Source: Ruminococcus sp. UBA1409 (GTDB lineage: Bacteria; Bacillota; Clostridia; Oscillospirales; Ruminococcaceae). Taken from it: a stretch of 64,000 nt of DNA. The notes under the pieces were generated by a model, which ran no database searches, was not told the origin of the DNA, and saw nothing but the letters and a program-made list of their open reading frames with translations. The position numbers and the translations under genes were made by a program. The stretch lies in assembly GCA_002305045.1 (NCBI GenBank), contig DBPX01000022.1:38307-102306 (forward strand), read 5' to 3'. Shown here piece by piece: positions 8,490-58,183 of this stretch. The first letter of the stretch is position 1, and the number at the start of each line of letters is the position of its first letter.

Positions 8490-9044
8490 TTACCTGAGTT
8501 TAACACGGAGCTTTGTCCGCACCCTGGAGAGGGCGTTTCCCACAGCCTTCTCGGTTATTCCGAGACGGCAGGCAATCTCACGGTAGCTGCTGCCGGCAAG
8601 ATACTCCAAAAATACCGCTCTTTCCATATCGGTGAGGATTTTTCCCGCCAGGCTCATGACCTCGCCCAGCTCCTCCCTTATAAGAACTATCCCCTCGGGA
8701 GTCAAGGACGCCTCCAGTCCCAAATCGCCTATCTCCTGCTCACGGCTCTTTATCCTTTTGCTCCTTTTAAGAAGCAGAAGCATCCTGTTGCTGACGCAGG
8801 TGTAGACATAGGTCCCAAGGCTCGCTCCACGGGTGGAATCGTAGCTCTCTATCGCCTGTAAAAGAGCCAAAAGCCCCTCGGAGATAAGGTCGTCCCTTTC
8901 GGCGGCGCCGCCCTCAAGAGTCCTCGCCAGATGCAAAACCGTCCCCATATGGCGGTGAACAAGCTCGGAATATGCCAGACGGTCGGAAAAGACAAGCTTT
9001 AAAAGCTCGCCATCGCTCAGACCTGTGAAGCCACGGGACTGCAA
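8490..9044 (-). CDS. Sigma-70 family factor, sigma-H (Spo0H)-like
   Basis: 184 residues. Region 2 is seen as RDDLISEGLLALLQAIESYD then FxTYVYTCVSNRM-like sequence (SLGTYVYTCVSNRM), and region 4 as MERAVFLEYLAGSSYREIAC with the HTH ending KAVGNALSRVRTKL. The NALSRV(R/K) ending and the LTPEGIVL(I)REEL lead resemble sigma-H of Bacillus more than ECF sigmas. Family role: transition-state and early sporulation transcription. The start is taken as TTG at 9044, with GAGAGG 7 nt upstream; a TTG at 9059 has no SD. It lies just after ftsZ, where Clostridia often carry sigE/sigG, but its size does not fit those. Confidence 0.8.
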   Translation of the reverse strand: MQSRGFTGLSDGELLKLVFSDRLAYSELVHRHMGTVLHLARTLEGGAAERDDLISEGLLALLQAIESYDSTRGASLGTYVYTCVSNRMLLLLKRSKRIKSREQEIGDLGLEASLTPEGIVLIREELGEVMSLAGKILTDMERAVFLEYLAGSSYREIACRLGITEKAVGNALSRVRTKLRVKLR

Positions 9045-9186
9045 AAAACCACCTCTCAACGGTCATGGCAGACAACTTTGTAGAGAATCATATCATTTTT
9101 AGCCTTAAATGTCAAGAGTCTTGACCATTCTGAGCTATTTTATGGCAAAATGCACAATTTTATCATGAAATATCAGCCGATATAAC

Positions 9187-51472: not shown

Positions 51473-52657
51473 TCAGTAAACTGTAATACCAAGGGTGGAT
51501 ATGATATTAGCCGCCTTTACATAAATGATATAATTTGTGCCTCCTTGTTTGCCGGTCATTATTCCTGCAACACGCCGGCTTGAAGATGAGCCTCCTCCTG
51601 CAACGATGCCACCACTATCGCCTGAATCACAAGTTGCGCTAGTGACAACACAATCACTAATATTATACGATGTGGTGTAATTAGTATCGACTATAACTCC
51701 GCTCTTGCACCCCGTTGCTTTTCCTTTAGAATAAGTGGTTGAGCCTACTGCAAGAGTTGTATAGGTGCCTGATATTAAATTAAAATTCCATCCAGAAATA
51801 TACCTTGTAGCAGAAAAATTAGCATTAGTCCTCTCAACAAACACCGCATCAACGCTCCCAGAGAAATAGGGTGTTGAGGCAGTTCCAAAAACTGTTGTGC
51901 CTACCCATATGGTGTCTCCTTGAGAAATTGAAGAATGAGGAGCGGTGATAATTCCAAGATCCCCATTTGCATTTCTTGCCCAAAATCCTGCGCTTCTGGT
52001 ATATCCTGAATCTGTAATTTCAGCCCCTGGTTCCAAATCAGCAACAGTAGCATCCTTCCCAGGTGTTGAAATTATTTTAATATTCTCAAAATCTGATATG
52101 TTATCCCTAACTTGATTATTAAAAGCGCTAGTTTTTGCAACTGCATCTGAGGTGACAACATATAAACTAACTGAATTGTCAGGGAAGGAAATCCCAACAC
52201 CTGCAATGCTTGATATAAGCAAATCTGAAGAATTTGGGTTCATTTTTTCTACTATTTCACCATGTGCCTGCTTAAGCTCGTTAAAAGAGTAGCTTACCTC
52301 CTCAAACACCACATTTGTGAGGTTGATGATGCTTCCAAAATATTCTTCAATGCTGTCATCAAGATAGGTTACCTGAATTACTAGCTCCTTTTCATTATTA
52401 ATGTAGGCTCCTCCATAAAAATCAGGATAATTAACATTTGATTCAGTAACAAACTGGGAGTTTTCCGACCATTCATTCAGTAATTCGTTGTATTTCTCAT
52501 TCGCTTCGTTTTCTAGCTCCTGCAGTTCATCAGATAAAACAGCTAGATTTACATTTGTGTCGGTAGCTTCTTCAAAAGCGACCATATTTGAACTTGGTAT
52601 AAGCCAGACCGACATTAAAAGAGTAAAGGTCAAAATTACAGTTATTATTCTATTCAT
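51473..52657 (-). CDS. Secreted chymotrypsin-like (S1) serine protease with pro-region
   Basis: 394 residues. Signal peptide (about 1-28), long acidic pro-region (about 30-205), then an S1 domain of the streptogrisin/alpha-lytic type: His241 in ITAPHSS, Asp270 in GSVDAVF, Ser348 in CDSGDSGG. The full triad is present, so it should be active after processing. Cys317, Cys336 and Cys343 may form a disulfide. SD AAAGGAGA before ATG 52657. Base composition is visibly A/T-rich with different codon use from its neighbours, suggesting acquisition by transfer. Cotranscribed lipoprotein follows. Alternative: surface-exposed self-processing protein of unknown target. Confidence 0.88.
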   Translation of the reverse strand: MNRIITVILTFTLLMSVWLIPSSNMVAFEEATDTNVNLAVLSDELQELENEANEKYNELLNEWSENSQFVTESNVNYPDFYGGAYINNEKELVIQVTYLDDSIEEYFGSIINLTNVVFEEVSYSFNELKQAHGEIVEKMNPNSSDLLISSIAGVGISFPDNSVSLYVVTSDAVAKTSAFNNQVRDNISDFENIKIISTPGKDATVADLEPGAEITDSGYTRSAGFWARNANGDLGIITAPHSSISQGDTIWVGTTVFGTASTPYFSGSVDAVFVERTNANFSATRYISGWNFNLISGTYTTLAVGSTTYSKGKATGCKSGVIVDTNYTTSYNISDCVVTSATCDSGDSGGIVAGGGSSSSRRVAGIMTGKQGGTNYIIYVKAANIISTLGITVY

Positions 52658-52739
52658 ATATATATCTCCTTTACAATACATTAAATAACTATGCTATTGT
52701 TTTCAGGAAGCGCACAAATTGACAATCATTTTTCCCAAT

Positions 52740-53280: not shown

Positions 53281-54111
53281 CTATACGCCCTTCCCCGCCG
53301 ACGGCACGGCAAGCTCTTCGTGGGAAGAAAAGCCTCTTCCTAGGCTGTATTTGAGCCGTATCCTGTCGACTATCAGGGCGATAAACTCGCTGTTTGTCGG
53401 CTTGCCCTTGCCGGTGTTGACGGTATAGCCGAAGAAGGAGTTTAGCGTCTCGACATCTCCACGGTCCCAGGCTATCTCGATTGCGTGGCGTATCGCCCTT
53501 TCCACCCTTGAGGGCGTGGTGGAGAACTCCTTGGCGACCGTGGGATACATCAGCTTTGTCACCCTCTCCAGCATATCCGGGTCCGAAACCGAGTGGATTA
53601 TCGCCCTCCTGAGATAGTGATACCCCTTTATATGCGCCGGGACGCCCAGCCTGTGTATCATCTCGGTGACGACAAGCTCGATATCCGGGACCTCTCCCGT
53701 GACCGAGGTCCCCCTCGAGCCGGAGCCTATGTCAAAGCCTAAAAGCTGGCTTATCCTCTCCTTTAACAGCCTCGGCTCAAACGGCCTCACAAGGTAGTAG
53801 GCGGCTCCCTCCTGCATAACCTGCCTGAGGGCAAACTCGTTCTCGCAGGGGGCGGTTATTATGAACACCGGGCGTCTTGACTGGGACTTTGAGAGCCTTC
53901 TCATAAGCTCTATTGCGTCCATGCCGGGCATCCACAGCTCGGCGACCACTACATCCGGGGACTCCTGCATACAGCCCTCGTAGACGGCGGGACCCTCCTT
54001 CGGCCTCACCAGGCAGAAAAATCCCGCAGCCCTCAGCTCGGCGGCGCATCTCAGACCGAACTCCTTTGTGTTGTCACCGATAAGCACCTTCAGCTTTTTT
54101 GACATTTTCAT
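53281..54111 (-). CDS. spo0A: Sporulation master regulator Spo0A with altered receiver site
   Basis: 276 residues. C-terminal Spo0A effector domain (about 150-265) is strongly conserved: LGVPAHIKGYHYLRRAI, TTPSRVERAIRHAIEIAWDR and GKPTNSEFIALIVD. The N-terminal receiver domain departs from the active consensus: phosphoacceptor position is Glu58 (VVAELWMP where Spo0A has DxxMP), the acidic pair is D13-N14, and the conserved Lys is Arg109 (YLVRPFEP); Thr86 remains. Glu could mimic phospho-Asp or make the protein insensitive to phosphorelay. ATG 54111 with AAAGGA upstream; an ATG two codons later is possible. Confidence 0.96.
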   Translation of the reverse strand: MKMSKKLKVLIGDNTKEFGLRCAAELRAAGFFCLVRPKEGPAVYEGCMQESPDVVVAELWMPGMDAIELMRRLSKSQSRRPVFIITAPCENEFALRQVMQEGAAYYLVRPFEPRLLKERISQLLGFDIGSGSRGTSVTGEVPDIELVVTEMIHRLGVPAHIKGYHYLRRAIIHSVSDPDMLERVTKLMYPTVAKEFSTTPSRVERAIRHAIEIAWDRGDVETLNSFFGYTVNTGKGKPTNSEFIALIVDRIRLKYSLGRGFSSHEELAVPSAGKGV

Positions 54112-54217: not shown

Positions 54218-54396
54218 GGCATTTCATCAATTTTTCCAATCTTTGGATAGATGAACAAAAACTCTGAAAAATATTTTTAAGCCGCCTGTCGAAGGCTGTA
54301 AAATAAGCGGGACTTTTCGTCTGTAGACACTAAATATAGTGTTTTACCCGGATTTAAACCGATATATGGGACTCTCGCCGCCCATTTCGTCGGGGA

Positions 54397-56972: not shown

Positions 56973-58133
56973 TCAGGAGTATTCGCTAAGAAGCTCTCCA
57001 AGGCTCATTCCTACAAGCCTGCCGGCGTATAAAGCCTCGTCTAGGGAGTTGGCGCTTGAGCCGACCTCAATTAAGAGAGAGCCTTTTGTAAGCTCCTGAT
57101 TGTAGTTTCTGTCGGCTACAAGAATCGGCCTTGTCAGTCCGGGATAGTCCTTTTCAAGCTTGGACTGTATCTTAGACGCAAGCCTGAGATTGTAGCGGTA
57201 TCTCGGGACATTTGTACAGCCGCAGACTATCATGACCTGTGCGGCGGAGCGTCCGTCGACCTCGCAGACGGGAGCGTATCTCACCCCGGAGTCCTCCATG
57301 GCGTCCCTGTGTATGTCAAGGACTATTTTCACGGTGGGGTACTCCTCAAGAAGGCTTATGACCCGCTCCGAGCTTCTGTCATAGGCTCCAGAGTACCTTG
57401 GATAGTCGTGAACGGCGGTGTCGTGTATAACTCCGATTCCTGCCGCCTCCAGAGCGTCGGCTATCTCCCTGCCGACGGCGACGACGCTCTTGTCAAGCTC
57501 GGTGGTGCGTGAGGAGAACTCGCTGTCGTAGCTCTCCCTTTGGTACGGCTCGTAGCATTCTGTCGTGTGAGTATGCATAATTATAACCTGCGGCGAGCCG
57601 TCAAGGGATATTTCAAGCTCAGGCTCCCTTTCTAACTGCTCCTTTATGTACTCCATGTCGCTCGAGGAGCTGTTTCTCAGCATCCCGCCGCCGGGAAGCT
57701 CTATACAGCTCGAGGAGGGAGTGTAGCTATAGGTCCGCCTGATTATCCTGCCGCCGTCGGAGTTAAGGGCGTCAGGATAGGGAAGCGGCTCTTTCGGCTC
57801 CTCGTTTGGGTCCTCGGGGTCCTCAGCCTCGGCAGGCGAATCTCCTAGACTCTGATAAGGGCGATATCCTCCGCCGCCTTCCATGAGCTCAAAAAGCCGG
57901 CTGTAATCCGGGTATCCGCCGTCTGCGGAGTCCGCCGTGTCTGTCTGCGAGGACTCCGTAAGCTGTGGGAAGGACAGCGCCATCGAGCCTCCCGACGCCT
58001 CGCTCACAAGCCTGAAAAGACCTCCCGTACCCTTTAAAAAGAGGGTCAGCCCCACGCCGTACAGCACCGCAAAGGCGAAAAGCCCTCCTGCCGCAAACTC
58101 CGTAATGCTCTTTTTGAAACCCGGTCTTTGCAT
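56973..58133 (-). CDS. spoIIP: Stage II sporulation protein P (SpoIIP) peptidoglycan hydrolase
   Basis: 386 residues. One N-terminal membrane anchor (about 14-36), a Ser/Glu/Pro-rich linker (to about 160), and the SpoIIP hydrolase domain: IMHTHTTECYEPY (about 186-198), LDIHRDAM (about 268-275) and EVGSSANSLDEALYAG near the end, matching the amidase/endopeptidase metal site. Drives septal thinning and engulfment with SpoIID and SpoIIM. The start is ATG 58133 with AAAGGTGG 5 nt upstream; the GTG three codons earlier lies in the SD. Confirms the organism's sporulation lineage. Confidence 0.93.
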   Translation of the reverse strand: MQRPGFKKSITEFAAGGLFAFAVLYGVGLTLFLKGTGGLFRLVSEASGGSMALSFPQLTESSQTDTADSADGGYPDYSRLFELMEGGGGYRPYQSLGDSPAEAEDPEDPNEEPKEPLPYPDALNSDGGRIIRRTYSYTPSSSCIELPGGGMLRNSSSSDMEYIKEQLEREPELEISLDGSPQVIIMHTHTTECYEPYQRESYDSEFSSRTTELDKSVVAVGREIADALEAAGIGVIHDTAVHDYPRYSGAYDRSSERVISLLEEYPTVKIVLDIHRDAMEDSGVRYAPVCEVDGRSAAQVMIVCGCTNVPRYRYNLRLASKIQSKLEKDYPGLTRPILVADRNYNQELTKGSLLIEVGSSANSLDEALYAGRLVGMSLGELLSEYS

Positions 58134-58183
58134 ATAAGCCACCTTTCTTATGCTTTATTAACTAAAAACTTTTAAAAATTGTC

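Follow-up and report, generated by a model that had tools for sequence, protein, structure and literature searches.

In endospore-forming bacteria, Spo0A, the master response regulator of sporulation, is described as being activated when a conserved Asp is phosphorylated (PMC11210211). According to the same review, in many Clostridia orphan histidine kinases phosphorylate Spo0A directly, and the phosphorelay is absent from several families, including the Ruminococcaceae. Receivers that have dispensed with this residue are also known. In a survey of Aspartate-less receivers (ALRs), Glu is the commonest replacement (26%), ChxR being an example with Glu at the site (PMC4395418). The survey points out that an Asp-to-Glu change often does not suffice by itself and lists Spo0A with the proteins that need other changes too, so phosphate mimicry cannot be assumed from a Glu at this position alone. 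A natural Asp-less Spo0A is not described in the available parts of that survey, and a literature search covering titles and abstract openings, with most subscription journals outside its coverage, returned no description of one. In a large study, two criteria, the presence of spo0A and a 66-gene score, were combined to class gut Firmicutes as spore-forming (PMC8340488). If there are Spo0A proteins, recurring as a group, that cannot take the canonical phosphate, either sporulation can be started without phosphate or predictions from gene presence overcount spore-formers.

The protein considered here is encoded in a 64,000-nucleotide stretch of DNA (hereafter the window) from Ruminococcus sp. 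UBA1409. Its frame runs on the minus strand from 54111 down to 53281, while the plus strand is interrupted by stops, and it contains the following features:

53281..54111, minus strand: spo0A coding sequence, 276 aa (translation; TIGR02875)
53740..54096, minus strand: receiver domain, residues 6-124 (Response_reg; AlphaFold2 pLDDT mostly above 90)
53359..53670, minus strand: Spo0A_C DNA-binding domain, residues 148-251 (whole profile matched; Spo0A effector-domain structures are the best matches)
54070..54072, minus strand: codon AAC of Asn14; Asp in 29 of 29 congeners (sequence, alignment)
53938..53940, minus strand: codon GAG of Glu58, phospho-acceptor position; Asp in 29 of 29 congeners (sequence, alignment)
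53854..53856, minus strand: codon of Thr86, the receiver switch Thr/Ser position, retained (alignment)
53785..53787, minus strand: codon of Arg109, where receivers have Lys; 15 of 29 congeners likewise have Arg (alignment)

The window protein passes the curated Spo0A equivalog model TIGR02875 with 231.9 bits against a cut-off of 200. Its receiver matches Response_reg of Pfam (48.8 bits, cut-off 30.2), and its DNA-binding half, as the original prediction had stated, is conserved, covering positions 1-104 of the 104 of the Spo0A_C profile with 147.3 bits (cut-off 25). The solved Spo0A-DNA complex 1lq1 is matched in both sequence and fold. In the AlphaFold2 model the receiver and the DNA-binding domain are intact and are joined by a low-confidence linker. 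When this model was used as a Foldseek query, Spo0A effector domains took the top seven places. Below them came receivers and full-length regulators, a mix of beryllofluoride-activated and non-activated forms, and therefore the model is silent on the activity state.

The protein is thus like Spo0A in domain order, equivalog score, DNA-binding domain and predicted upstream 0A-box cores (see below), but unlike the canonical regulator it lacks both the phospho-acceptor Asp and the second residue of the metal-ion-binding acidic pair, of which only D13 is kept. Both replacements had been called from the translation, and they stand when the codons are read directly: position 58 is Glu and the pair reads D13-N14, with neither Glu58 nor Asn14 occurring in any of 29 congeners. 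The original prediction also counted Arg109 as part of the anomaly, but Arg at this position is ordinary, being present in 15 of the 29 congeners and in 61 of 120 homologue clusters. The protein retains a receiver fold, according to both the Pfam match and the model, and has its phospho-Asp replaced by Glu58. It is therefore to be filed as an Asp-less variant, a non-canonical Spo0A: Spo0A by equivalog score and ALR by definition. It differs from ALRs such as ChxR (PMC4395418) in that its DNA-binding half is of the Spo0A_C type.

Upstream of the gene stands a putative target of Spo0A itself, with the core of the 0A box presumed to be TTCGACA:

54287..54293, minus strand: perfect 0A-box core TTCGACA in gene direction, 182 bases before the spo0A start (sequence)

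Of 30 genomes, 10 have perfect cores in the 400 bases upstream of spo0A, 11 in total and all oriented the same way, against 1.5 expected from base-composition shuffles, and a one-mismatch core lies at a similar place in several other genomes. Putative sites are likewise predicted at other sporulation genes of the window's genome. The spoIIE-like gene has a perfect core about 85 bases before its start, the only one in a 7-kb stretch, and spoIIGA has a core with one mismatch (TTTGACA) about 50 bases before its start; no perfect core occurs in the 6.5 kb surrounding spoIIA. Among the 29 readable spoIIGA loci (one further locus was unreadable), 12 carry the perfect core, 10 a core with one mismatch, 2 a one-mismatch core elsewhere and 5 none, the one-mismatch counts having no shuffle control.

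Two rival explanations have to be considered here. One is a sequencing or assembly error at codons 14 and 58, since a single base separates each of them from Asp (GAC or GAT to GAG; GAC to AAC). The window protein has a homologue cluster, P0002, which is the cluster of its own species, is 99% identical to it and comprises 26 member sequences from 45 contigs. Its representative, the one sequence of the 26 that was read, carries E58, N14 and R109, while residues 41 and 261 set it apart from the window protein. The replacements are thus present in independent assemblies; a read error, which had been named as a possible refutation, is therefore unlikely, and we regard it as hardly credible at both codons. 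The other explanation is that an intact Spo0A resides in the missing part of the genome, with the window copy being secondary. The source genome (22 contigs, 1.74 Mb) is estimated to be only 88.5% complete, and some relatives do carry two copies, for instance at two loci each in G031 and G038. Nevertheless, both the identities and the tree make the window copy the ortholog-like counterpart and best match of the congeners' single main copy, and it shares the 0A box present at those main copies. A profile search of the 88.5%-complete assembly retrieved no second full-length Spo0A, so this further refutation was not borne out either; the sole other Spo0A_C match is a 147-aa protein with no receiver match. 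A hidden intact copy thus appears very unlikely.

The genus commonly has small Spo0A_C proteins that are too short to include a receiver (e.g., L002:1396-1839). In G016, three matches of identical score and length are spread over different contigs, hinting at a mobile or repeated element. Pairs of full-length Spo0A-like genes were seen at L051/L052 (G031), L058/L059 (G038) and L118/L119 (one named MAG).

How widespread is the replacement? Full-length Spo0A was obtained from 29 of 30 congeners, G020 (76% complete) giving none, and all 29 display the DD pair together with Asp at the phospho-acceptor site. Judging from these alignments, Glu58 and Asn14 are a trait of the window species as sampled, and Arg109 is background. 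The idea that the three residues might be fixed in a clade does not hold, as every congener keeps the Asp and Glu recurs in more distant company. Among the 120 homologue clusters, Glu58 is found in 11, P0002 included, and Asn14 in P0002 only. The remaining Glu-bearing clusters (P0044; P0058, P0061, P0084; P0062, P0067, P0069, P0074, P0075, P0102) resemble the window protein in having Glu at the acceptor site, Thr86 and Lys or Arg at 109, but all ten differ from it in keeping DD. P0074 is recorded as Ruminococcus sp. Marseille-P6503, a numbered strain name, and the question may therefore be testable in culture.

From named genome records, 80 loci were fetched, of which 78 were readable and 2 had no receiver letters; the readable loci include 64 with Asp, 8 with Glu, 3 with Asn and one each with Ser, Gly and Pro. 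After removal of 36 near-duplicates from 263 rows, the pooled alignment held 227 rows, two members of the order being left out (G039, no match; G045, gene cut by a contig end). Asp occupies the acceptor site in 190 of these rows and Glu in 20, shares that do not equal natural frequencies because similarity to the window protein decided which rows were included. The tree was built from 222 rows with column 58 excluded, the five removed being second or poor copies (L061, L062, L063) or rows without receiver letters (L116, L160). On this tree, Glu versus not-Glu (20 of 222 rows) requires 15 changes, a rough count because several other branches adjoining Glu rows are weak, and Asp versus not-Asp requires 25. 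The window protein is nested among Asp-bearing sequences, and the six branches leading to it have SH-aLRT values of 78-88. The DN pair is unique to it among the 20 Glu rows, the others having DD, ED, EE, DA, ND or KN. In the close set, Thr86 accompanies Glu in 11 of 11 rows and DD in 10 of 11, and 88 of 101 Asp rows have Thr or Ser at 86; in the wider order, just 13 of the 20 Glu rows have Thr or Ser there. Residues other than Asp and Glu occupy the site in 14 of the 222 order rows; loci with Asn, Ser, Ala, Gly or Pro include L004, L003, L010, L012, L051, L058, L124, L152, L158, L167, L171 and L184.

Since residue 58 is Glu, phosphorylation at the canonical Asp cannot take place in the window protein, and control without it is, as far as sequence comparison goes, the most economical reading. 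We favor, with a probability of roughly one half, a working Spo0A that is used without canonical Asp phosphorylation, in which Glu probably mimics the phosphate and whose output would be set by its own expression. Arguing for it are the recurrence of Glu in relatives, the Thr86 of all 11 close Glu rows, a receiver rate that is not raised, the retained spore genes, the 0A-box cores and the failure to find an orphan kinase with a His; arguing against it are the caution of the survey, the changes at conserved receiver sites, the similar kinase picture of Asp-bearing sisters, the missing perfect core around spoIIA and the Thr or Ser at 86 in just 13 of the 20 Glu rows. Glu as a phosphate mimic is plausible, being the commonest replacement in the ALR survey (26%; PMC4395418) and 20 of the 34 replacements here. 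In the proposed mechanism, Glu58 together with Thr86 and Arg109 would keep the receiver partly active without any need for phosphorylation; Asn14, a possible second change beside Glu58 that may play a helping role, would weaken the metal site of the receiver pocket; and the decision to sporulate would depend not on a kinase but on the amount of Spo0A, to which autoregulation via the 0A box would contribute. As the same Glu change recurs in relatives, some of them may also start sporulation without phosphate. A broader proposal, which we advance tentatively and with the odds somewhat against it, is that gut Oscillospiraceae have repeatedly uncoupled the initiation of sporulation from Asp phosphorylation: their Glu-bearing Spo0A would be competent without phosphate, and the decision would be taken via spo0A expression and autoregulation, no dedicated orphan sporulation kinase having been found in the genus.

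With regard to kinases, all 15 HATPase_c matches of the source genome were read. A recognisable His marks eight of them as kinases, each of which has a response regulator next to it. By eye, the rest were assigned to gyrB, mutL, htpG, two ATPases from a single gene cluster, SpoIIAB (an identity confirmed by profile score) and one orphan ATPase devoid of His. An orphan kinase with a His, whose presence the original prediction had suggested looking for, is not among these 15 matches. A regulator beside a kinase does not prove that the kinase ignores Spo0A. In two sisters that bear the Asp, a regulator accompanies 5 of 7 comparable kinases (G011) and 4 of 6 (G023). The unpaired ones, L265 and L283 in one case and L262 and L284 in the other, have no regulator within the sequence stretch examined, and the related kinases of the window's genome do have a regulator beside them. 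The possibility that an orphan sporulation kinase was lost together with the Asp finds no support, as the Asp-bearing G011 and G023 are, within the stretches examined, equally without a clear orphan kinase. Because these sisters look alike in this respect, kinase loss cannot explain the Glu in this congener alone, and it constitutes at most a permissive background. G011 and G023 also share a small kinase that the window's genome lacks, but it was discarded as a genus-wide Spo0A kinase: matches of at least 46% identity exist in only 15 of 31 genomes, and it lies within a cluster that carries its own regulator.

The remaining candidate is the orphan ATPase:

G000:C12:7770-8459 (L325; L290:3196-3981), window's genome: His-less orphan ATPase; across the genus, L309-L335

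Of the 31 genomes from the genus, 27 encode this soluble, histidine-kinase-like protein, which has the ATP-binding motifs. The window copy contains no His whatsoever, and the 27 aligned genomes, the window's included, share no His column, which removes it as a co-lost kinase; for the same reason, its missing His is not tied to Glu58. It is a possible regulator that acts by means other than phosphotransfer. Such a protein would suit a receiver rewired to another input. The new signal might come from a small molecule, from a partner protein or from the modification of some other residue, and Glu58 would hold the old site fixed. Non-phosphorylated inputs to ALRs are discussed in PMC4395418, and three receiver changes of the window protein (D14N, A46G and G117K) each occur in none of 109 Asp-bearing clusters. 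However, no partner or ligand was identified in the present analysis, and rewiring is considered rather unlikely.

The preferred reading, a Spo0A that works without the canonical phosphate, also has to be confronted with receiver decay. With branch lengths re-fitted on the fixed tree, the ratio of receiver to DNA-binding rates is 2.74 on the window terminal branch, against 2.59 for the 188 Asp rows, 2.82 for the 20 Glu rows and 1.99 for the 14 other rows; receiver-specific acceleration on the window branch relative to the Asp rows is thus not detected. On the other hand, of the sites that do not vary among the 15 nearest Asp-bearing clusters, those changed in the window protein number 8 of 49 in the receiver, Glu58 being one of the eight, versus 1 of 87 in the DNA-binding domain, in a comparison set that excludes Glu58 by construction. 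Each of the 15 sisters, left out in turn, shows changes at 0-5 receiver and 0-3 DNA-binding sites. The counts would also fit a loosened constraint, which speaks against the preferred reading, and, because the window branch is longer than those of its sisters, they cannot separate loosened from reshaped constraint. Overall, the rates give no sign of decay and the conserved-site counts may be taken as a hint of it.

The extent of the sporulation gene set bears on the same issue. Two of its candidate members lie in the window:

56973..58142, minus strand: spoIIP (SpoIIP 205.4 bits; TIGR02867 166.1, cut-off 123.15)
8490-9059, minus strand: sigma-70 family factor, neighbour of ftsZ (among its best named matches are several SigH models, far under their cut-offs)

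The original prediction held that the lineage keeps spoIIP and a sigma-H-like gene. The former is confirmed, in the same neighbourhood as spo0A, but the latter, with a SigH score of just 70.7 bits, stays far below the cut-off of 294.8. Elsewhere in the source genome, SpoIVA and SpoIVB were found, SpoIIAB is over its cut-off, SigE and SigG are each over one of two equivalog cut-offs, and SpoIIGA is over the Pfam and under the NCBIfam cut-off. SigF-like and SpoIIAA-like proteins are present with scores below cut-off, as is a SpoIIE-like protein, whose score is likewise below in all 29 genomes with a match (of 30). SASP is present, as in 26 of the 31 genomes. By its content, this gene set fits a spore-former. 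A former spore-former with a relic Spo0A accordingly finds no support: within the part of the signature set that was searched, SpoIIP, SpoIVA, SpoIVB, SpoIIGA, SpoIIAB, SigE, SigG and SASP are kept. A separate short second SpoIVB (Peptidase_S55) fragment lies at G000:C7:95020-95127, near the full-length gene.

A milder form of decay would be that phosphorylation control is fading, here and repeatedly in relatives, leaving a receiver that is weakly active or little used and sporulation that is rare or disappearing. The concentration of conserved-site changes in the receiver and the Asn, Ser, Ala, Gly or Pro found at the site in 14 order rows point in this direction. Against it stand the receiver/DNA-binding ratio, which is not raised, the intact receiver fold in the AlphaFold2 model, the broad set of spore genes retained, SASP among them, and the fact that Glu makes up 20 of the 34 Asp replacements (rows that are not independent), compared with 26% in the ALR survey (PMC4395418). 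Relaxed constraint is thus unlikely, although it is to be taken seriously beside a Spo0A competent without phosphate.

Two further observations concern the surroundings of spo0A and its occurrence in sequence records. The frame adjoining it in the window (51473-52681, minus strand) encodes a 402-aa protein that matches nothing in Pfam or NCBIfam. Visual inspection points to a signal-like start and to a GDSGG motif resembling that of trypsin-type proteases. Spo0A-like matches also appear in 17 'phage' records (MT835715.1, MT835504.1 and others; H1-H8), 10 of which cover most of the query; 15 of the 17 are unannotated faecal 'Bacteriophage sp.' entries and perhaps represent host DNA.
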